A DNA stretch of 64,000 nt from an uncultured Clostridia bacterium. GTDB taxonomy: Bacteria; Bacillota; Clostridia; Oscillospirales; Ruminococcaceae. Positions within the stretch are counted from its first letter, which is position 1, and each line of letters begins with the position of its first letter. The translations under genes were made by a program, and so were the position numbers. Shown here piece after piece: positions 135 to 30,429 of the stretch. The notes under the pieces are model-generated. The model did no database searches. It was given only the letters and a program-made list of their open reading frames with translations, and had not been told where the DNA came from. Location of the stretch: positions 1 through 64,000 of the forward strand of contig CANQVE010000006.1 in NCBI GenBank assembly GCA_947627205.1, read 5' to 3'.

Positions 135-608
135 TCATATCTCCTCAATTATGTTCAATATCTTCTTTCCCTGTTTCTTTGCATACTGAACTGTTTTATA
201 TGCACCTCCGCTTTTGTGGGTTATACAGCATATCACAAGGTCGGAGCGGTCTATCATGCTTTGATTTCGTATAAGTATAGCCGATTTTGGGTGAGCGTCT
301 GCGGACTTTTCGCATATCTCGACTTCATCATAATATTCAAGAAAGTTTTCTTCATTTTTGCGGAAATCGGCTTTCATATACGGCAGGACAAGCGTGAGGT
401 GAGTGTTTCCGTATCCGTAACTGCTGACCGCTTTCCTTATGGCGGCGGAGGCTATCATGTCAAACTCTCCGTCACGTCCTATAAGAAAATCGACATATTC
501 TTTCTCATTTATCAGCTCGTGCAATATCCTGTCAAGCCGGCTCTCTATCTCCGCTTCTTGTTCAATATACCTGTGACCGAAAAAACTTACGGTATAAATA
601 TTTATCAT
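135..608 (-). CDS. SLOG-family protein (DUF1273/YpsA-like)
   Basis: A Rossmann-like protein of about 157 residues that opens with the TVSFFGHR signature of SLOG/YpsA-type proteins. A later stretch (SDLVICCITHKSGGA) fits the usual second nucleotide-binding segment. SLOG proteins are thought to bind nucleotide-derived ligands, but the role of this subgroup is unknown. Three in-frame ATGs exist (623, 611, 608). The GAGGA at 617-621 lies inside the longest reading, so the ATG at 608, 8 bases after it, is preferred. A TTGACT-17-TATAAT promoter reads into the gene. It is divergent from an XRE regulator, which suggests joint control. It could be a nucleotide sensor or nucleoside-processing enzyme. 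Confidence 0.75.
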   Translation of the reverse strand: MINIYTVSFFGHRYIEQEAEIESRLDRILHELINEKEYVDFLIGRDGEFDMIASAAIRKAVSSYGYGNTHLTLVLPYMKADFRKNEENFLEYYDEVEICEKSADAHPKSAILIRNQSMIDRSDLVICCITHKSGGAYKTVQYAKKQGKKILNIIEEI

Positions 609-651
609 CATTTGTTTCCTCATTTGTCCGTGTCAATTTTAAAAAGGTATC

Positions 652-701
652 TGTTTCAATTATACCTAAAAATAGTTGTTAAGTCAATACAAATTGAAAC
701 A
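652..701. promoter_or_regulatory. Inverted repeat, candidate operator
   Basis: TGTTTCAATT and AATTGAAACA are perfect 10-bp inverted copies separated by 30 bases in the shared intergenic region of the SLOG and XRE genes. The spacing places both arms on a similar helical face, about three to four turns apart. Binding by the neighbouring XRE protein is inferred. Confidence 0.45.
659..687 (-). promoter_or_regulatory. Promoter of the SLOG gene
   Basis: On the minus strand TTGACT (682-687) and TATAAT (659-664) are 17 bases apart. The -10 box overlaps the left arm of a 10-bp inverted repeat (TGTTTCAATT at 652-661, AATTGAAACA at 692-701) that brackets the promoter, a plausible operator for the divergent XRE regulator. 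Confidence 0.75.
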
Positions 702-758
702 ATGCATAGGTGAAATTTCATCTGCGTATATTATAATTGTATGTAGGTGGTGATTGGA

Positions 759-1067
759 ATGATAGATGCGGATTTTATTTCGGACAGGATAGCAAAGCTG
801 AGAACTCAAAAGAACATCTCTGCAAGAGATATGAGCCTTAGCCTCGGACAAAGTCAAAGCTACATCAACAATATCGAAAACAAGAAAGCTATGCCGTCTA
901 TGCAGATGTTTCTTTATATATGCGAGTTTCTCGGAGTTGAACCGAAAGATTTCTTTGATGAAAATGTGACAAGTCCGAATAAACTTGCTGACGCTGTCGA
1001 GGCATTAAAGCCTCTTTCTCCGAAACAGCTCGAATTGCTCACAGCGCTTGCAAAAGAGATGAAATAA
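759..1067 (+). CDS. XRE-family transcriptional regulator
   Basis: A 102-residue DNA-binding protein with one XRE/Cro-type helix-turn-helix at about residues 8-62 (ISARDMSLSLGQSQSYINNI, then MPSMQMFLYICEFLGVEPKDF). The tail contains a leucine-rich helix suited to dimerisation. A GTG at 747 would add four residues, but AGGTGG (745-750) sits 8 bases before the ATG at 759, so the ATG is taken. It is divergent from the SLOG gene, and the inverted repeat between them is the obvious candidate binding site. A weak -10 (TATAAT, 732-737) precedes it and an intrinsic terminator follows directly. Its signal is unknown. Confidence 0.85.
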   Translation: MIDADFISDRIAKLRTQKNISARDMSLSLGQSQSYINNIENKKAMPSMQMFLYICEFLGVEPKDFFDENVTSPNKLADAVEALKPLSPKQLELLTALAKEMK

Positions 1068-1090
1068 GGCGGTAATGAAAACCGCCTTTT
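1068..1090 (+). terminator. Intrinsic terminator after the XRE gene
   Basis: GGCGGT (1068-1073) pairs with ACCGCC (1081-1086) and is followed by TTTT. It starts directly at the stop codon. Confidence 0.8.
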
Positions 1091-1281: not shown

Positions 1282-2142
1282 ATGAACATTGGTTTTATCG
1301 GAGCAGGAAAAGCAGGGAGCTCTTTAGGAAAATTTTTCGCGGACAGCGGTTGCTGTGTGACGGGCTATTACAGCCTGCACGAAAGCTCGGCGCGCGCGGC
1401 TTCGGAGTTTACGGGTTCTAAATTTTACAGCAGACCTGAAGAAGTGATAAAAGAGAGCGACGCGGTTTTTTTGACTGTTCCCGACGCGGCAATAGGCTCG
1501 GTCTATGACGAGCTTAGAAATTTCGATATTGAGGGCAGGCATATATGTCATTGCAGTGGAGTGATGACGGCGGCTGAGGCGTTTCCCGATATTCGCCGAC
1601 GCAAGGCTTTTGGATATTCTGTACATCCGCTATTTCCCTTTTCGGGAGCTGAAAGCTCAAAGGGAGATCTCGCGGGTGCATTTTTTTGCATTGAGGGAAG
1701 CGAAGAACATCTTTCAGAGTGGAAAAGTTTTCTCGAAAATCTCGGCTTAAATGTGCAAATAATAAGCCCCGAAGCAAAACCGCGCTATCACGCCGCCTGC
1801 GCTGTAGCAAGCAACCTTGTTTGCGCGCTTATCGACGAGAGCGTCGGGCTTATGACAGAGTGCGGATTTACAAGAGAAAGCGCGCTTTTGGCGCTTGAGC
1901 CGCTAATTCGCAGGAATACGGAGAACATTCTGAAATACGGTCCTGCAAAAGCGCTTTCGGGAGCTGTCGAGCGAAACGATATAAAGACCGTAAAAAAACA
2001 CCTCGATTGTTTTCCGACAGCCTCTGAAAAGGAAATGTACCGCGCGGTGTCCGAAAGGCTTATAAAAACAGCCCGCGCGAAAAATCCCGATACCGATTAT
2101 TCCGAGCTTGAAAAATTGCTTATGGGAGGTAATCAAAAATGA
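1282..2142 (+). CDS. panG: Ketopantoate reductase PanG type (Rossmann + DUF2520)
   Basis: Predicted to reduce 2-ketopantoate to pantoate with NADPH in the cytoplasm. The N-terminus carries a dinucleotide-binding glycine motif (GFIGAGKAGSSLG, residues 4-16); from about residue 125 the chain is a DUF2520-type helical domain with the YHAACAVASN segment. It is unlike PanE or IlvC. PanG was described as the sole ketopantoate reductase of Francisella, with homologues reported in Clostridium difficile and Enterococcus. Being first in an operon with panB, panC and panD, which otherwise lacks this step, strongly supports the assignment. It overlaps panB by ATGA, implying coupled translation. Its ribosome-binding site lies in a leader hairpin. 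Confidence 0.85.
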   Translation: MNIGFIGAGKAGSSLGKFFADSGCCVTGYYSLHESSARAASEFTGSKFYSRPEEVIKESDAVFLTVPDAAIGSVYDELRNFDIEGRHICHCSGVMTAAEAFPDIRRRKAFGYSVHPLFPFSGAESSKGDLAGAFFCIEGSEEHLSEWKSFLENLGLNVQIISPEAKPRYHAACAVASNLVCALIDESVGLMTECGFTRESALLALEPLIRRNTENILKYGPAKALSGAVERNDIKTVKKHLDCFPTASEKEMYRAVSERLIKTARAKNPDTDYSELEKLLMGGNQK

Positions 2143-4248: not shown

Positions 4249-5454
4249 ATGGAACAAGACCTCAAAGGAAAGCGCGTTCTTGTCGGCATAAGCGGGGGAA
4301 TAGCCGCCTATAAAATGGCGGATACAGTCAGTATGCTCATAAAAGCGGGCGCGGAAGTCGATGTGATAATGACGAAAAACGCGGCGGAGTTTATAACTCC
4401 GCTGACGTTTGAAACGCTCACAAAGAAAAGGTGCGTTGTGGACACATTTGCGCGCGATTTTCAGTATGACGTAGCGCACATCTCTCTCGCAAAGGCGGCG
4501 GATATAATTCTTATTGCTCCCGCGACAGCCGATATTATTGCGAAAACGGCGCACGGCATTGCAGACGATATGCTGACTACAACTGTTCTCGCGGCAAAAT
4601 GCAAAAAGCTCATTGCGCCCTCTATGAACACCGCCATGCTCGAAAACCCGATAACTCGGGATAACATTGAAACGCTGAAAAAATACGGCTTTGAAATAAT
4701 AGAGCCCGACAGCGGGAGGCTCGCCTGCGGGGATTTGGGAAAAGGAAAACTGCCCTCTCCCGAAATTCTCGTACAGCATGTTATGCGCCATATTGCTCGG
4801 GAGAAAACGCTTTCGGGCGTAAAAGTTACAGTCACTGCGGGAGCAACCCAGGAGGCTCTCGATCCCGTGCGCTTTCTCACAAACCACAGCAGCGGAAAAA
4901 TGGGCTACGCTATTGCGCGCGAAGCAATGCTCCGCGGCGCGGACGTTACTCTTATAAGCGGAGCAGCGCAGATAGAACCGCCGATGTTCGTAAAAATGAA
5001 AAAGGTCGTTTCGGCAGCGGATATGCTGAAAGCAGTTGAAGAAGTTCTTCCCGAAACGGACATTCTTATAAAAGCCGCGGCAGTAGCCGACTATCGTCCG
5101 AAAAACGTTTCGGACAATAAGATGAAAAAACATGACGACGATCTGAATTTACCGCTTGAACGTACCGAGGACATTTTAAAGCATGTAAGCGAAAACCGGC
5201 ACGCGGGATTGTTCGTCTGCGGGTTTTCAATGGAAACGGAAAACCTCATTGAAAACTCACGCGAAAAGCTCTTTAAAAAAGGGCTCGATATGATAGCCGC
5301 AAACAGTTTGAAAACAGAGGGCGCGGGATTTGGCGTAGATACAAATGTAATAACTCTCATAACGCCCGACGGTATTAAAGAACTTCCTCTTATGTCAAAG
5401 GCAAGCGCCGCAAAAGAGCTTCTTAGCGAAATAGAAAAAAGGGTGACGGCATGA
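4249..5454 (+). CDS. coaBC: Bifunctional CoaBC (PPC synthetase/decarboxylase)
   Basis: Converts 4'-phosphopantothenate to 4'-phosphopantetheine by adding cysteine and then decarboxylating. The N-terminal flavin domain (about 1-190) has the active-site His77 (VAHISLA), the APSMNTAM motif (123-130) and the key cysteine Cys160 in ACGDLGKGK. The C-terminal synthetase domain (about 190-401) begins VKVTVTAGATQE and contains the NHSSGKMG nucleotide site and a KAAAVADYRP lysine motif. Length is as expected. It overlaps coaX by ATGA. Neighbouring panBCD and coaX make the operon a near-complete CoA route. Confidence 0.97.
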   Translation: MEQDLKGKRVLVGISGGIAAYKMADTVSMLIKAGAEVDVIMTKNAAEFITPLTFETLTKKRCVVDTFARDFQYDVAHISLAKAADIILIAPATADIIAKTAHGIADDMLTTTVLAAKCKKLIAPSMNTAMLENPITRDNIETLKKYGFEIIEPDSGRLACGDLGKGKLPSPEILVQHVMRHIAREKTLSGVKVTVTAGATQEALDPVRFLTNHSSGKMGYAIAREAMLRGADVTLISGAAQIEPPMFVKMKKVVSAADMLKAVEEVLPETDILIKAAAVADYRPKNVSDNKMKKHDDDLNLPLERTEDILKHVSENRHAGLFVCGFSMETENLIENSREKLFKKGLDMIAANSLKTEGAGFGVDTNVITLITPDGIKELPLMSKASAAKELLSEIEKRVTA

Positions 5455-6252: not shown

Positions 6253-7998
6253 TCAGACCGCGCCTTTTGTTGTTTGTGCTTTTGATGATTTTTTGCGCCG
6301 AATAATTATCGGAATTATAACTAAGAGAATAACGGACGCAAGCGAAATAAAATAGGAAATTGTCTTGATGAATGTCGGGTGGTGCTCGACTGTTATCCTG
6401 CCTTGTGCGCCCGAAAGTTTGACTTCCAAAAGTCCGTTTTCGGACATTGTTGTTTCAAGCTGAAGTCCGTTTTCATCTGCCGCTTCATAGCCCTTGTACC
6501 AGATGTACGGAAGTACGGCATAGTTTGCGCTTTCGTTCAGTGTAAATGTAAGCGTGCCGTTGTTTCTTTCGCAGTCTATGTACTCCCCGCTGTCAAGGAT
6601 TATTCTGTCGCCCATTTCAACGACCGCGTCTTTACCTCCGTTCTGCGCCGCGCGCGGCAGCCATTCGCCGTTTCCGATCGCCGTCGTTTCGCTTATGTTA
6701 TCATAATGGTCGTCATAATAAGGCTCTTCCGTGTGATTTACTCCTCCCACTTCTACATGAATAAACGCAACGAGAACAGCCAGCGCCGTCATTAGTATCA
6801 TAGCCCTCTTCGGCGCTTTTGCAAATTCGGAAATGTAGTAAATATATATTGTCCCCGCAATTATAAGTAAAATAGATGCAGGCGCAAAAAATCTCCACGG
6901 GAATTGCATAAAATTGAAGATAACCGAAAGAAACTCCCATGGAACGAGCTCCGTTGACATAAGCGCAAAAATAATCCCCATTATAAGAAATGTGTCCGCA
7001 AATATGAGAATGTTCTTTCGCTTTTTTGTGTTTTCGTCCATTAAATACGCTTCATAAACGGGAGATCTTTTTGTAATAAAAATTCTCGGAACACACATCA
7101 GGAAAACGGGAAATTTCATTCCCGCAACTCCTCCGCCGTCCATAATATCCTTAAATAATCTTACAAACGGTATAGCATTGTCCACTGTTTCATAAGCCGA
7201 TTTTTTTACGGACATCTCGCAGGACATAAGAAGCTCGCATAACGGAAGCCAATAAAACGCCGTGACAAGCGCCGCACAGCCCGCCGTTATAAAAAGTTTC
7301 GGCAGTTTTTTGCGGTCGGATATTATCCGCTTTATAAAAATTACCGAAAGTATTACGGCAATTATAAGTGCAAGCGCGGTCGAGATAGAATGGCTCAAAA
7401 GCATACCTGCAAAGCCTATCCCTAAAACATACGGCTTTTTGAATTTGTCAAAAATAAAGTCGTACAGCCCGTATAATATAAGAGGCCAGAATACATAAGC
7501 GAGCACTTCTCCCAGAGCAAAGCGCGTAATGATATTGTCCAGGCGATAGGAAGAAAGCACATAAACCACAGCGCCTATCGTCCCGCAGATACGGCTTTCG
7601 GAAATGTTCCTCAAAAATATAAACATAAAGCAGTATGAAAATACACCGCACAAAAATAAAAACATAGCCATGCTTTCCCCGATACTTACGCCGCATACTC
7701 TCAAAAATGAGGGAATAAGCAAAAATATATCGGGATAAGCAAACCCCGCATAGCCTCCTCCGCCGAAATAGAGATAGTCTATCCCCGAAAAAAGCTCGTT
7801 GTTTTCGATGCTGTATTTAAGGGCTTCAACGCGCAGATAGTGATACCTGAAATCGTGACCTGTTATGGGTATGTCAAAAGGGTACAGAATTGATATAAGA
7901 TAGTAGTTCGCAAAAAGAAAACAAATGACGCATAATATCGTTGCTGAGTTTTTCCTGATAAATGCAATAAAGCTGTTTTTACATTTTTGAAAGTCCAT
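6253..7998 (-). CDS. Polytopic membrane protein, PTPS-related/YfhO-like (GT-C-like)
   Basis: A 581-residue protein with about twelve hydrophobic segments and a soluble region near residues 425-545. The first extracytoplasmic loop has ITGHDFRYHYLR, resembling the GHDLPFH loop of the 6-pyruvoyl-tetrahydropterin synthase-related membrane family and of YfhO-type proteins. These resemble GT-C glycosyltransferases, whose acidic residue in that loop is catalytic, so a role in transferring a lipid-linked sugar to a surface polymer is possible but unproven. One TM helix near the C-terminus is followed by a basic tail (RRKKSSK). It stands alone, convergent with coaX. Confidence 0.75.
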   Translation of the reverse strand: MDFQKCKNSFIAFIRKNSATILCVICFLFANYYLISILYPFDIPITGHDFRYHYLRVEALKYSIENNELFSGIDYLYFGGGGYAGFAYPDIFLLIPSFLRVCGVSIGESMAMFLFLCGVFSYCFMFIFLRNISESRICGTIGAVVYVLSSYRLDNIITRFALGEVLAYVFWPLILYGLYDFIFDKFKKPYVLGIGFAGMLLSHSISTALALIIAVILSVIFIKRIISDRKKLPKLFITAGCAALVTAFYWLPLCELLMSCEMSVKKSAYETVDNAIPFVRLFKDIMDGGGVAGMKFPVFLMCVPRIFITKRSPVYEAYLMDENTKKRKNILIFADTFLIMGIIFALMSTELVPWEFLSVIFNFMQFPWRFFAPASILLIIAGTIYIYYISEFAKAPKRAMILMTALAVLVAFIHVEVGGVNHTEEPYYDDHYDNISETTAIGNGEWLPRAAQNGGKDAVVEMGDRIILDSGEYIDCERNNGTLTFTLNESANYAVLPYIWYKGYEAADENGLQLETTMSENGLLEVKLSGAQGRITVEHHPTFIKTISYFISLASVILLVIIPIIIRRKKSSKAQTTKGAV

Positions 7999-24630: not shown

Positions 24631-25371
24631 ATGAACGCCATTGAAACCAAAAGCCTTACGAAAAAGTATAAGTCAAAAACAGCGGTAGATAAGATAGACC
24701 TCACCGTTAAAGAGGGCGAGCTTTTCGCACTTTTGGGAGTAAACGGCGCAGGCAAAACAACTATCATAAGAATGCTCACAGGTCTTTCTCACCCTACAAG
24801 CGGGGAGTGCAGGGTATACGGGAACGACTGCGTTTCAGAGCGCGGCGAGATAAAGAAAATAGTCGGCATTTCCCCGCAGGATACCGCTGTTGCGGAAAAT
24901 CTTACGGTAGATGAAAATTTACGGTTTATGTGCGGGATCTACGGTCATTCAAAAGAAAAGACCGAGCAAAAGACAGCCGAGATGATAAGGCTTTTCAAAA
25001 TGGACGAGGTGAAAAATTCCCGCGCGAAAACGCTTTCGGGCGGGTGGAAAAGAAAGCTGTCCATAGCCATGGCGCTTATTTCCGAGCCGAAAGTTTTGTT
25101 TCTTGACGAGCCGACTTTAGGACTTGACGTATTGGCAAGGCGCGAGCTGTGGAGCGTTGTTGAGCGGTTAAAAGGCGGAACAACTATTGTCTTGACCACT
25201 CACTATATGGAAGAAGCGGAGCGCTTAGCCGACAGGATAGCTATAATGTTAAACGGTAAAATCGCGGCAAGCGGCACGTTGTCCGAGCTTGAAAAGCTGA
25301 GCGGGAAAACGGGACTTGAAGAAAGCTTTGTGGAGATAGCAGAGCGCTTCAGAAAGGATAATGTAATATGA
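24631..25371 (+). CDS. ABC exporter ATPase
   Basis: A 246-residue drug/lipid-type ABC ATPase. Walker [11 protein letters not shown]-loop in GISPQDTAV, signature LSGGWKRKL, Walker B LFLDEPTLGLD and the switch histidine in LTTHYMEEAE are all intact. Upstream in-frame codons from 24601 lack a binding site; GGGAGAAAA fixes the ATG at 24631. It overlaps the permease gene by ATGA. The substrate is unknown; the neighbouring regulator suggests an antibiotic or peptide stress response. Confidence 0.93.
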   Translation: MNAIETKSLTKKYKSKTAVDKIDLTVKEGELFALLGVNGAGKTTIIRMLTGLSHPTSGECRVYGNDCVSERGEIKKIVGISPQDTAVAENLTVDENLRFMCGIYGHSKEKTEQKTAEMIRLFKMDEVKNSRAKTLSGGWKRKLSIAMALISEPKVLFLDEPTLGLDVLARRELWSVVERLKGGTTIVLTTHYMEEAERLADRIAIMLNGKIAASGTLSELEKLSGKTGLEESFVEIAERFRKDNVI

Positions 25372-26129
25372 ACAGAATACTAAGCTTTTCAAAGCGCAAC
25401 TTTCTTGAAATCATACGCGACCCGTTAAGTTATATATTCTGCCTCGGATTTCCGCTTATAATGCTCGTTGTTATGACGCTCGTAAACGACACTATCCCGA
25501 AAGAAACGGGAATGACGATATTTAGGATAGATAACCTTTCGGGAGGAATAGCGGTTTTCGGAATGACGTTTTTGATGATGTTTATGTGCCTGTCGGTAGT
25601 TAAAGACCGAGCGGGGGCGTTTCTTATAAGACTGTACGCAACGCCCATGAAAAGTGGAGATTTTATTTCGGGCTACATTTTCCCCCTGTTTATTTTGTCA
25701 ATTTTACAGTCTGCAATTACATTCTTTGCGTCATATATGATATCGCTTATAACAGCCGTAGAAATAAACGTTTTGGGAATGTGCCTTGCGGTAATATCGC
25801 TCATGCCTACGACAATAATGTTCATTTCGCTTGGAGTGCTGTTTGGAACATTGTTCAGTGAAAAGGCCGCGCCCGGTCTTTGCTCTATAGTGATCTCGCT
25901 CGGTTCTTTTTTGGGCGGGATATGGTTCGATGTAAAAGGCGCGGGCGGTATACTTGAAATAATCTGCACTGTCCTCCCGTTCTATCATTCGGTAGAGACT
26001 GCAAGATCGGCGATAAATTTAAATTCGGATATTTTCGTTCACTTGCTTATTACAATAGGTTATGCCTTTTTGATAACGGCGGTTTCGGTGATAGTGTTCA
26101 AAAACAAAATGAGGGCGGATCTAAGCTGA
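25368..26129 (+). CDS. ABC-2 type permease
   Basis: A 253-residue membrane partner of the preceding ATPase, with six hydrophobic segments starting near residue 22 and ending near 245. The middle has the MPTTIMFISLGVLFGTLFSEKAA region typical of ABC-2 exporters. Two copies should pair with two ATPase subunits. A terminator follows at 26141. Confidence 0.88.
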   Translation: MNRILSFSKRNFLEIIRDPLSYIFCLGFPLIMLVVMTLVNDTIPKETGMTIFRIDNLSGGIAVFGMTFLMMFMCLSVVKDRAGAFLIRLYATPMKSGDFISGYIFPLFILSILQSAITFFASYMISLITAVEINVLGMCLAVISLMPTTIMFISLGVLFGTLFSEKAAPGLCSIVISLGSFLGGIWFDVKGAGGILEIICTVLPFYHSVETARSAINLNSDIFVHLLITIGYAFLITAVSVIVFKNKMRADLS

Positions 26130-26140
26130 TAGTTACTAAA

Positions 26141-26170
26141 AAAAGAGGCGAGAACATTCCCGCCTCTTTT
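26141..26170. terminator. Terminator after the ABC permease (left copy)
   Basis: AAAAGAGGCG (26141-26150) pairs with CGCCTCTTTT (26161-26170). It resembles the terminator at 27966-28000; both are followed at a similar distance by a pheT 3'-end sequence. Confidence 0.85.
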
Positions 26171-26181
26171 GTTGTCTTGTT

Positions 26182-26222
26182 AAATTTCTCCTGCTATCGC
26201 CCCTAAATCACTTGCAAGAAAA
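26182..26222 (-). pseudogene. Remnant of a second pheT 3' end
   Basis: On the minus strand the bases read L-A-S-D-L-G-A-I-A-G-E-I-stop, matching the end of the intact pheT product (VVASDFGAIVRGI). By eye 34 of 41 bases agree with the true pheT terminus. Several differences are silent third-position changes, as expected of a real coding sequence from a diverged relative. Only this stub remains; to the right the match fades into the ATPase promoter region. With the adjacent terminator it forms a direct repeat of 27966-28060. Confidence 0.7.
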
Positions 26223-26228
26223 ATACTA

Positions 26229-26257
26229 TTGAAAAATTTACATTAGAAAGGTATAAT
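26229..26257 (+). promoter_or_regulatory. Promoter of the ATPase gene
   Basis: TTGAAA (26229-26234) and TATAAT (26252-26257) are 17 bases apart. Confidence 0.75.
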
Positions 26258-26300
26258 AATTTATAGAAACACTTATAACCTTGTGAAAAGAGGAAACGAA

Positions 26301-27893
26301 ATGAAACAATTGATTTTATATGACATTAAAGTCAACTATAAAGAAAAAAGAGACTCATATAAAGATGTTGTTGATTTTATCAACAGCGATATTTGTTATG
26401 ACGGAACAGTATGCGTTCTTTACGGTCTGCGCAGAACAGGCAAGACTACCATAATGCATCAAGTTATGACTGACAATGCCGACAAATTTTCCTCTCTGTT
26501 TTTAGAAGTTACTCAAAGCGACACTATGGAAGATGTGTATTCCTGCCTTGACAATGCGTTGAAAAACGGTATCAGATGTGTTTTTATTGATGAGATTACT
26601 AACATACCCGATTTTATTGAAGAAAGTGCGCTGCTTGCAGATATTTACGCCAAAGAGGGATTAAGGATTGTTCTTGCAGGCACGGATTCTTTAAGTTTTG
26701 TTTTTGCAGAAAACAACAGCCTATATGACAGAACAGTGCATATAAACACTGCTTATATATCGTTTGAGGAGCATTGCAGAGTACTTGGCACAAATGATTT
26801 GGATGATTACATCTGTTATGGCGGATTTATGCGAAAGGGAGCTTCCGCAGAAGACCGTATTGTTTACGACTATACTACTGCCTGCAGATACATTGATGAC
26901 GCTGTATCCGGCAACATTTCGCGAAGCCTGAGAAATCTTGCAAAATATTCTGACTGCACAGAACTTTTTGATGTTTCAGAAAATGAAATGAAAGCTGTTC
27001 TTAAAAAAATGGCTGAAAAGTACAGCGGTGTATTAAATGAAACGATAGTGAACGAAGAACTTGCAAAGACAGAGCTTTCGTTTCCTATAAAACAAGATGA
27101 GTTTAAGGAAATTGAGGAAATGGAGATTTTTCGTTATCTTCGGGCGAATAATCCTGAAATTGTCAAAGAATTAGCAAAGGAGATAAATTCAGATACAAAA
27201 ATTGTTCATAAATTTACCGAGGATATGATTGCTAGGCTTGAAAACGATTTGATAAATCTTGGATTTGTTTCTGCTGTAAAAAAGCAAGAATTTTGTTATA
27301 GCAAAAATTATGGCTGGAGAAGTTTGCCGGTTGAAAGAGAATACTATCTGATACAGCCTGCCATTAAATATTATCATTTAAAAAAGGCATTGGAATTTAT
27401 TGAAACCAACGAACATTACAACAGTCTTTCCGAAAAAGGAAAGCAGTTTGTTTCTGAAAAACTTGATTTAAAGATAAAGGACGATATGACGGGGCAGATA
27501 GTTGTTTTTGAAACGTCTAACGTCCTTTCTTCTGAAAAATATGACGTTTATAAAATATCATTCAAAGACAGTGACCTCGAAAAATCGCGAGGCGAGTATG
27601 ATATGCTGATATACGATAAAACAAATGATTCGTACTATGCTTTTGAAATCAAGCATACCGCCGAGCCGAGCAGTGAACAGTGCAAAAATCTTTTGAATAA
27701 GGACTTCAAAGAAATTATTGACAGAAAATACGGGAAAAAAGAAAATGTTTGCGTTTTGTATAACGGAAAGCCCTTTTCATCACCGCAGGGAGTTCTTTAT
27801 CTTAATATTTCCGATTTTTTAAAAGAAATCACGCACATCAGAGATGTTAAAGAAACAATGGAAAATTTGCAACATGCAGTAATTCCGTATTGA
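26301..27893 (+). CDS. AAA_14/DUF4143-type ATPase with nuclease-like C-terminus
   Basis: A 530-residue member of the widespread accessory ATPase family of gut anaerobes. The AAA domain has Walker A GLRRTGKTT (about 41-49) and Walker B CVFIDEIT near 99. The C-terminal DUF4143-like part contains GEYDMLIYD and AFEIKHT, the spacing of a PD-(D/E)XK nuclease core (Asp, then Glu-x-Lys). Function in the family is unknown; defence and genome-maintenance roles have been guessed. AGAGGA precedes ATG 26301. The gene is visibly AT-richer than its surroundings and poor in the GCG/CGC codons common around it, and is bracketed by duplicated pheT ends, so it was probably acquired. Confidence 0.85.
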   Translation: MKQLILYDIKVNYKEKRDSYKDVVDFINSDICYDGTVCVLYGLRRTGKTTIMHQVMTDNADKFSSLFLEVTQSDTMEDVYSCLDNALKNGIRCVFIDEITNIPDFIEESALLADIYAKEGLRIVLAGTDSLSFVFAENNSLYDRTVHINTAYISFEEHCRVLGTNDLDDYICYGGFMRKGASAEDRIVYDYTTACRYIDDAVSGNISRSLRNLAKYSDCTELFDVSENEMKAVLKKMAEKYSGVLNETIVNEELAKTELSFPIKQDEFKEIEEMEIFRYLRANNPEIVKELAKEINSDTKIVHKFTEDMIARLENDLINLGFVSAVKKQEFCYSKNYGWRSLPVEREYYLIQPAIKYYHLKKALEFIETNEHYNSLSEKGKQFVSEKLDLKIKDDMTGQIVVFETSNVLSSEKYDVYKISFKDSDLEKSRGEYDMLIYDKTNDSYYAFEIKHTAEPSSEQCKNLLNKDFKEIIDRKYGKKENVCVLYNGKPFSSPQGVLYLNISDFLKEITHIRDVKETMENLQHAVIPY

Positions 27894-27965
27894 AATCAAA
27901 ACGGAAAAAAGCGGGTTCTCCCGATAGCTTTGGGGGTTCTCGATAGTACAGTACCGCATATTACA

Positions 27966-28000
27966 AAAAAGAGGCAAGAACCCAAATTCTCGCCTCTTTT
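27966..28000. terminator. Bidirectional terminator between the ATPase gene and pheT (right copy)
   Basis: AAAAAGAGGC (27966-27975) pairs with GCCTCTTTTT (starting at 27992), with an inner AGAA/TTCT extension. It has T-runs for both directions and is the partner of the copy at 26141-26170. Confidence 0.85.
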
Positions 28001-28017
28001 TCTTATGCCGTTTTATC

Positions 28018-30429
28018 TTAAATTCCTCTTACTATCGCTCCGAAATCACTCGCAACAACTGCGTTTATCTTTATCATCTCGCTGTCCGCGATTTCATCGG
28101 TAACATCGCAGTCGTCAGCAAACGTTATCGAGAACGACAGGCTCTTTTTGCCGAAACCGAGCTTTTCGTTTTCATAGTGGTCGAAAAGCTCAACTTTAAC
28201 GGCTTTCGCGCTCGCTTGTCTTATCGCGTTTTCAACGTCTCCGCAGAGCGTTTTCTTGTCGAGGATAAGCGACAAATCGCGCTTTATCTTCGCAAAGCCG
28301 TTGTCGGGAACATACTTAATTTCAGGCTCGTACATCTCCTGAATTAAAGAATAGTTAAGCTCTGCAATTATAATGTTCAGGTCGGTTTTCTTGCCCTCGG
28401 CAATATTAAGCCCCTCGACAACTTCATATTTAAGTTTACCGAGATGACCTATGCTCTTTTCGTTGCAGAATATTTCGGCGGTCATTCCCGAATGGAGATA
28501 AGGTCTTTCGCCTCGCTTAAAGGTGAAATTAAGTCCGTTCGCAAGCGCAAAGCTTTCTATTGCTTCTTTCACGGTAAAGAACGTTTCGTCCGCGCCGTAT
28601 GCGCCGAGGCAGAGAATTTTCCGTTCTTCGGGAGCTTCTTTAAGAGGCAGTTCTTTCGGAAGATAAACATTAGCCAGCTCGAAAAATCTTCCGCTCGAAC
28701 GGTCGTTCTTTACATTGTCGGCAATTACGTTTATCATACACGGCGACATAACCGTGCGCATTATCGAAAGGTTGTCCGTTATCGGATTTAAAAGCTCAAC
28801 GCATTTTCTTTCGGGAGCGTCCTCGGGGAGCATTATCATATCCAGTTCGCGCTTTGAGTACATTGCGAGCGTCTGTATCTCGTAAAATCCCATCGCGCAG
28901 AAGAACTTCTTCGCCGAAAGCTCCTTGTTCTGGAGATAATTAAGTCCGCCGCCCGTGACCTTTGCGCTGTCAAGAAATGTCGGTACAACGTGGCTGTAGC
29001 CGTACTCGCGGATAATTTCCTCCGCAATATCCTGATAGTTTTCAATATCGGCTCTCCAGCGCGGAACGGTAAGGCTTAACGTTTCGCCGTTTTCCTCAAC
29101 CCCGAACTGAAGTGCGCGCAAAATCTCAACGATAGTTTCCTGCGGAACATCTATGCCGAGTACGGAGTTCACCTTTGACACGGTAACGTCAAATTTCACG
29201 TTTTCGGTGCTTTCGCCTGCGGTCACATCATAAGCCGATGAACTTATTTCAGCAACGCCCATTGTCTGAACAAGGTTCAGCGCTCTCGCCATTCCGCATT
29301 CAACTCCGTATTCGTCTACGCCCTTTTCAAACCTTGCCGCTGCGTCAGTGTGAAGTCCCAGAGCGCGTGAGGTCTTTCTCACGTTATCTCTGCGGAATTT
29401 CGCAGCCTCAAGGAGAATTTCGGTCGTTGTCGGCTCGATTTCCGAGTTAAGTCCGCCCATAATTCCCGCAAGACCTACGCCCTTTGCCTTGTCGCAGATA
29501 AGCAGGTTTTCGGCAGTCAGAACGCGCTCTTTTTCGTCAAGCGTGGTTATCTTCTCGCCGTACGTTGCTCTGCGTACAACGATAGACTTACCGTCAAGCG
29601 TGTCCAAGTCGTATGCGTGCATAGGCTGTCCGATTTCAAGAAGAACATAGTTTGTAATATCGACAATAGCGTCAATTGCCCCAAATCCGCATACCGAAAG
29701 CCTGCGTTTCATCCATTGCGGGCTTTCAAAGTGCTTTACATTATAAATATAATGTCCGAGATAGCGGGGGCAGAGGTCTTTGTCAATGACTTCTACGGAA
29801 ATGTCGGGGTGAGTTTTTTCGGTGCAGTTATAGCTGTAGTCGGGTTCTTTAAGCGGTTTTTTCAGAAACGCCGCGACTTCTCTTGCTATTCCCAGAACCG
29901 ACTGACAGTCGGGACGGTTTGCCGTTATGGAAATGTCGAATACATAGTCGTCAAGACCGAGATATTTCACAATATCCTCTCCTACGGGCGCGTCATCGGG
30001 AAGAATTAAGATACCGTTTACATCTGCGCCCTTTATCCAGTTGTCGTCAATTCCAAGCTCTCCGCCCGAACAGAGCATACCGTAGCTTATCATATCTTTC
30101 ATCTTGCGCGGCTGTATTTCAAGACCGTTCGGAAGTTTAGCCCCTATAAGCGCCGCAGGCACTTTCGCGCCCTTAAACACATTGTCCGCGCCCGTCAGGA
30201 TAAGGTTGTCCTCGCCCTGCTCTCCGCAGTTGACGTGGCAGATATAGAGGTGCGTTCCCTCGTATTTTTCAATTGACGTAACCTCGCCGACATAGATTTT
30301 TTCAATGTCCTTGCCCAGATAAATCGTTTCTTCAACTTCAAATCCCGAACCGAACAGCTTTTCAACAAGCTCCTCGGTCGTAACGTCTATATCAACGTAT
30401 TCTTTCAGCCAGCTTTGTAATATCTTCAT
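28018..30429 (-). CDS. pheT: Phenylalanine--tRNA ligase beta subunit
   Basis: The 803-residue beta chain of the alpha2-beta2 enzyme that charges tRNA-Phe. In order: an EMAP-II-like tRNA-binding region (about 40-155), B3/B4 editing domain (about 210-405), B5 (about 410-475), the catalytic-like core and the C-terminal anticodon-binding FDX-ACB domain (about 710-803). Length is normal. It starts 12 bases after pheS and shares its T-box control. Its 3' end is the sequence duplicated at 26.2 kb. Confidence 0.97.
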   Translation of the reverse strand: MKILQSWLKEYVDIDVTTEELVEKLFGSGFEVEETIYLGKDIEKIYVGEVTSIEKYEGTHLYICHVNCGEQGEDNLILTGADNVFKGAKVPAALIGAKLPNGLEIQPRKMKDMISYGMLCSGGELGIDDNWIKGADVNGILILPDDAPVGEDIVKYLGLDDYVFDISITANRPDCQSVLGIAREVAAFLKKPLKEPDYSYNCTEKTHPDISVEVIDKDLCPRYLGHYIYNVKHFESPQWMKRRLSVCGFGAIDAIVDITNYVLLEIGQPMHAYDLDTLDGKSIVVRRATYGEKITTLDEKERVLTAENLLICDKAKGVGLAGIMGGLNSEIEPTTTEILLEAAKFRRDNVRKTSRALGLHTDAAARFEKGVDEYGVECGMARALNLVQTMGVAEISSSAYDVTAGESTENVKFDVTVSKVNSVLGIDVPQETIVEILRALQFGVEENGETLSLTVPRWRADIENYQDIAEEIIREYGYSHVVPTFLDSAKVTGGGLNYLQNKELSAKKFFCAMGFYEIQTLAMYSKRELDMIMLPEDAPERKCVELLNPITDNLSIMRTVMSPCMINVIADNVKNDRSSGRFFELANVYLPKELPLKEAPEERKILCLGAYGADETFFTVKEAIESFALANGLNFTFKRGERPYLHSGMTAEIFCNEKSIGHLGKLKYEVVEGLNIAEGKKTDLNIIIAELNYSLIQEMYEPEIKYVPDNGFAKIKRDLSLILDKKTLCGDVENAIRQASAKAVKVELFDHYENEKLGFGKKSLSFSITFADDCDVTDEIADSEMIKINAVVASDFGAIVRGI

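Follow-up and report, generated by a model that had tools for sequence, protein, structure and literature searches.

How did a single ATPase gene come to stand between two copies of the 3′ end of pheT, the gene of the phenylalanyl-tRNA synthetase beta subunit? Gene-end duplications are usually read as integrase scars. The window, i.e., the whole stretch of 64,000 nucleotides analysed here, comes from an uncultured Clostridia bacterium whose genome was placed in a genus of uncultured gut Clostridia/Oscillospiraceae, and a sequence-only reading of it had proposed that the insertion brought a replacement pheT end from another strain and left the displaced one on the far side, at a decayed or recombinational cassette site. 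From left to right the locus consists of an ABC-2 permease gene (25368-26129, forward strand; Pfam PF01061, E 7e-17; syntenic with G007 and G005), a displaced copy of the pheT/permease terminator (26139-26173), a displaced, or relic, pheT 3′ end on the reverse strand (26180-26220), an inserted segment of 1744 bp (26221-27964), the terminator of the current pheT end (27965-28001) and an intact pheT on the reverse strand (28018-30429; Pfam B3_4, B5, FDX-ACB and tRNA_bind), of which the last 41 nt (28018-28058) are the current 3′ end.

Aligned base by base, relic and current end agree at 34 of 41 positions, ungapped and in the same orientation, with a score of 27 that none of 20,000 dinucleotide-preserving shuffles reached (mean 8.0, maximum 19); with the terminators added (26139-26220 against 27965-28058) the score is 38, the shuffle maximum being again 19. 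Both terminators are strong hairpins of -16 kcal/mol each (z -5.4 for the displaced copy and -7.0 for the current one), and the displaced copy aligns with the current one as well as with those of G007 and G005. Reverse-complemented, the relic ends ...LASDLGAIAGEI before its stop codon, in frame with the ...VVASDFGAIVRGI of pheT, so the duplication around the ATPase gene and its readable C-terminus hold up under alignment, whilst the ‘several silent changes’ of the sequence-only reading were overstated: two of the seven differences are silent (GCG/GCA and GGA/GGG) and five change a residue. Chance or convergent likeness of terminators and C-termini might be thought of, since terminators alone are often alike and one of the cases described below (G027) is mainly terminator; for the window it is refuted by the shuffles of the coding match, by colinearity with an empty site in G007 and by recurrence elsewhere, and we give it practically no weight.

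In G007, whose pheT is 98% identical, the permease gene, a single terminator and pheT are directly convergent, i.e., an uninterrupted single-copy target, and this junction aligns with both flanks of the window insert. The inserted segment is absent from G007, G005 and G002, and these three relatives have one pheT end each, so that no case was met among them of both ends being kept without the ATPase gene. G002 has another gene instead (407 aa, DUF6017) and no ABC module. Empty sites of another kind, with pheT next to eno, occur in G064, G010, G034, G036, G009 and G024. The insert has 33-39% GC as opposed to 41-53% outside, which bears out the AT-richness noted earlier, and no significant flank repeat besides the pheT tail was found for the window cassette. 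Some further features lie around pheT in the closest relatives. Dispersed palindromic repeats of the GGGAAAAACTTTTTTGACAAAAAAGTTTTTCCC type take the place of the permease-pheT terminator region in the pheT flanks of G005 and G002 (L031 about 2240-2400 and L032 about 5200-5400), and the contigs of G006 and G012 break off in similar sequence shortly after pheT. In G005 (contig C62, L031:4902-6326) two genes lie between pheS and pheT, one methyltransferase-like (244 aa) and one of 227 aa that is, by eye, perhaps its restriction partner; considered as a further duplication case, this was rejected as a clean insertion with no target duplication.

The relic is of in-group origin. It is matched best by the pheT ends of G007 and G005 (scores of 47 and 46, respectively, for relic plus terminator, against 38 for the window's own current end), and an ending of the form ...xxI before the stop is common only to the relic and to pheT in the group of four species to which the window belongs (G000, G002, G005 and G007), the next relatives G065 and G033 ending in GAIRR. 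A pheT tail pattern covering both forms with up to three mismatches was found in the genus only at the pheT ends of these four genomes and once at the relic. The change of the C-terminus from GAIRR to GAIVRGI inside this group, compared with G065 and G033, is possibly an older tail replacement.

The cargo of the window is a gene for a 530 aa protein (26301-27893, forward strand) preceded by a promoter-like site, TTGAAA-17-TATAAT (26229-26257, forward strand; 11 of 12 consensus matches), which abuts the relic; the idea that the gene has its own promoter agrees with this consensus match. The earlier assignment to AAA_14/DUF4143 stood in its first half, AAA_14 being matched above the cut-off (Pfam PF13173, E 3e-14), and fell in its second, with no Pfam match to DUF4143 at E 0.001. 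The C-terminus carries a PD-(D/E)XK-like motif instead (D434...E449-x-K451, with D434...E449 conserved in three homologues), and an AlphaFold model gives it a beta-beta-beta-alpha-beta topology at pLDDT of about 65-85, the model being low elsewhere (mean pLDDT 46), so this domain may be predicted as PD-(D/E)XK-like, i.e., nuclease-like. A search of solved structures returned RecA P-loop matches only. The ATPase domain, and only this domain, matches the PADLOC candidate single-gene system PDC-S01 (E 2.5e-13), which might be taken as a lead towards defence rather than as membership. The closest homologue in the genus (64%, G033) lies at another locus beside a tRNA-like sequence, and this homologue and others have no pheT-like flank duplication; the ATPase as a mobile unit was hence rejected, and the duplication belongs to the site and not to the gene. 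A repeat of the TTAAGAGG(C/T)TAGAGGCTAGA type, also seen in G000:C1, stands as an inverted pair on the two sides of the G033 homologue (L058:5152-5185 and 7149-7182). In phage and plasmid collections only distant homologues occur (26-31%), and none was confirmed in IMG/VR.

When each member of the genus was searched with the end of its own pheT, and afterwards with the pheT ends of all, a displaced tail was found at five of the 31 loci with enough sequence, window included. The other four are in G017 (+1362..1440 behind pheT), G062 (+1030..1088), G032 (+606..709) and G013 (+722..767), i.e., 0.6-1.4 kb behind the gene, and they flank different genes, which answers the earlier suggestion that other cargo might be met at the pheT 3′ end. 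The inserted genes are flanked there, as in the window, by long direct repeats of the target sequence, whose identity is 83% in the window and 93% in G013. Grouped by their junction sequences, the five cases fall into three families (G017/G062, G013/G032 and the window) and would therefore represent about three independent insertions. The relics of these families start at -41, -28 and -67 (and perhaps at -5 in G027), so that the junctions, and any core in them, are not constant across families, and all lie within the last ~70 nt of pheT. Weaker candidates are G027, with terminator and stop codon only, and G066, with a 14-nt remnant; at many pheT loci cargo is present and a relic is not detectable.

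The cargo itself seems to be exchangeable. The G013 fragment lies at a contig end, and another contig of the same assembly (C196) continues with the shared left end, another cargo, the right end, a full displaced tail ending ...GAVRR before the stop, and then eno; since the two contigs converge on one and the same sequence, they would appear to be two haplotypes whose slot is filled differently. Constant ends enclosing different cargo were found in G013 (these two apparent haplotypes), G019, G023, G063 and G066. In the pheT-eno intervals of G013, G019, G023, G027, G032, G063 and G066, which hold different cargo genes, a promoter TTGACTTTT...TATAAT comes after the terminator of pheT, and most of these intervals also have AATTCCAATTTATCGGTAACGTCAATAAA...GTTCCCATAAAC ahead of the relic or eno. 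The shared right end was located at pheT-eno slots, except for one G023 contig that reaches eno and not pheT. By Pfam, the other cargos include a weak DinB match, AAA/kinase-like, helix-turn-helix and CAAX-protease-like membrane proteins, and unknowns, with no recombinase or transposase among those scanned. Inverted repeats around the pheT-eno cargos were tried as transposon ends and set aside, a weak inverted match being significant in G013 only; a transposon was rejected on the whole, with no transposase in the scanned cargos and neither accepted terminal inverted repeats nor dispersed copies seen.

Ordinary exchange between the flanking genes (pheT on one side, the permease gene or eno on the other) could by itself swap variable genes, and both the different cargo between constant ends and the many cargo loci without detectable relic would suit it, the duplicated tails then being rare, unrelated tandem duplications. 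Such exchange alone makes no displaced tails, however, and about three independent families of them at pheT stand against none at ~1,090 other gene ends, which leaves this explanation improbable in our judgment. The control covered 1092 gene ends tested in the same way, including the pheT of the window, in 1.26 Mb of the genus; they come from a handful of genomes, and other hot spots may well exist. None of the other 1091 gave an accepted displaced tail, matches there being rejected as paralogues, dispersed repeats, promoters, terminators or one short doubtful ORF, and the contrast with five of 31 pheT loci gives a Fisher P of 1e-8, or about 8e-5 when counted as events (about three versus one). 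Neither did 66 pheT genes of other genera have a displaced tail, nor did our literature search find a report of pheT as an integration site. The pheT 3′ flank thus appears to be a recurrent insertion slot, apparently specific to pheT in this genus. One possible second site of terminator duplication was noted at G000:C1:122017-122418 (L190), where a helix-turn-helix gene near ackA has a second copy of its terminator ~300 bp downstream (score 48).

The order in which the two tails arrived can be read in G013. Over the whole pheT, G013 and G019 group with G029 and G020, whose tails end AGAAGATAA; the current tails of G013 and G019, however, end TTCGCAGAGTATAA, and behind them stand the terminator and promoter found in the G066/G063/G027 clade, so that the final ~14 nt of pheT, like the terminator and cargo promoter after them, are of another clade's type. 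A shared core, CTCGGGGCGGTT, lies near the start of this foreign tail. In G013 the displaced tail has the native AGAAGATAA ending, and native sequence from about -67 to -15 stands on both sides. Judging by these clade-specific endings, the foreign tail adjoins pheT and the native one was displaced in G013. Similarly, the displaced tail of G032 scores 63 with the G020 end and 50 with the G029 end, against 21 with its own pheT, which suggests that the current end of G032 is a replacement from elsewhere. In the window, as in G013, a gene 3′ end is restored next to the cargo with the displaced end on the far side, and its current end is presumably the incoming one; the proposed donor in another strain, borne out in G013/G019 and suggested in G032, is not provable for the window itself, as the last 41 nt of pheT are identical in the four species of its group. 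A sliding-window comparison of the window pheT gave no clear donor breakpoint. The divergence of the relic, earlier taken as sign of a foreign donor, says little more: with four-fold-site divergence between species at 0.12-0.25, its 7/41 exceeds the neutral expectation since the split from G005 (P 0.01) and is compatible with the divergence of the permease gene from that of G007 (P about 0.2), so that neutral decay accounts for it only marginally, the excess over such decay being itself marginal.

A foreign tail joined smoothly to pheT, and an abrupt and variable junction to the native displaced tail, suggest homologous recombination at one end and illegitimate recombination at the other. We therefore consider it probable, though far from certain, that one-sided recombination of this sort (i.e., insertion with long target duplication) acted at a hot spot and was followed by cargo swapping. 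Incoming DNA would bring the pheT tail and terminator of a relative along with the gene or genes that lie behind them; homology at the pheT tail would let it recombine with the resident chromosome, whilst the far end of the cargo would be joined without homology to some point in the final 5-70 nt of the resident copy of pheT. Once the slot was established, cargo could be exchanged between its conserved ends and the displaced tail would decay. Variable relic starts are expected of an illegitimate junction and not of a fixed att core. The pathway of recombination, as well as any benefit, is what we infer. On the other hand, the relic starts are tighter than random illegitimate ends and the site is pheT only, both of which hint at a sequence-specific process, and one-sided recombination is reported as rare (PMC5361080).

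These same traits could be explained by a recombinase acting in trans, which would integrate site-specifically at the pheT tail as att site, the cargos being integrase-less (CIME-like) cassettes. It would suit this view that insertions hit one gene only, and only its final ~70 nt, that the foreign tail of G013/G019 has its start close to a shared core, and that the genomes are rich in integrases and resolvases; the integrase-less ssrA islands of Dehalococcoides, which have displaced gene ends at their flanks, set a precedent (PMC3146451). Against this, no recombinase was present in the Pfam-scanned cargos or recognised by eye in the ORFs up to 5 kb behind 31 pheT genes, and the nearest integrases or resolvases, among the matches listed, are 11-15 kb away, in G031 and G064; in the loci so covered, neither integrase, terminal repeat nor fixed junction was seen at the pheT slot. 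In addition, the junctions differ among insertion families, the native stretch on both sides in G013 is more than a core exchange gives, and the two patterns tried met with nothing like the pheT tail at other places in the genus or in IMG/VR contigs, so that the tail as attP in viral contigs was rejected. Given the confinement to pheT and to its last 70 nt we still see some chance, albeit a minor one, for a trans-acting recombinase. A bolder extension, which we regard as rather doubtful, would make the pheT tail a docking site dedicated to a recombinase-poor cassette system not described before, where cassettes of one or two genes with their own promoter replace the last codons and the terminator, push the previous tail outward and swap between species via constant ends. 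The earlier interpretation of a pheT-flanked insertion is supported, as each of the three checks proposed with it (flank alignment, empty site, other cargo in other genomes) went its way, and the lack of a recognised recombinase at the site, together with the variable junctions, favours a recombinational cassette over a decayed element.

Tail duplications thus recur at one essential protein gene without recognisable recombinase, and with a polarity that can be read in G013. The pheT locus offers a test bed for studying how a chromosome takes up single foreign genes in the absence of mobile-element machinery, and such insertions could be marked genome-wide, in a simple way, by displaced gene tails. 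Insertion with long target duplication is known from the restriction-modification genes of Helicobacter pylori (Nobusato et al. 2000, as cited in PMC3031569 and PMC1643837), and has in common with the present case a short foreign gene between long and variable direct target repeats, the lack of a transposase and a relative whose site is empty. The target here differs in being always the pheT 3′ end, the cargo in being mostly not restriction-modification, and the pheT-side end in being foreign in G013/G019. For the T6SS immunity arrays and Rhs loci of Vibrio, which also have displaced 3′ ends, homology-facilitated illegitimate recombination was proposed (PMC5361080), with a homologous anchor on one side, an illegitimate join opposite and the old 3′ part moved downstream; there it is an effector region that is replaced, whereas pheT is an essential housekeeping gene that keeps its function and has no more than a tail of 5-70 nt displaced. 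The ssrA islands of Dehalococcoides, and cis-mobilizable elements, likewise have an intact gene at one boundary and, at the other, a displaced duplicate of its 3′ end, and some of these islands are without any integration module; related ones have a serine recombinase and a fixed 20-bp repeat, whereas the pheT loci examined are without recognised recombinase and their repeat lengths vary (PMC3146451). The mechanism would therefore be of a known kind in a new setting, and what could have passed for one decayed scar belongs to a recurrent, apparently pheT-specific slot.
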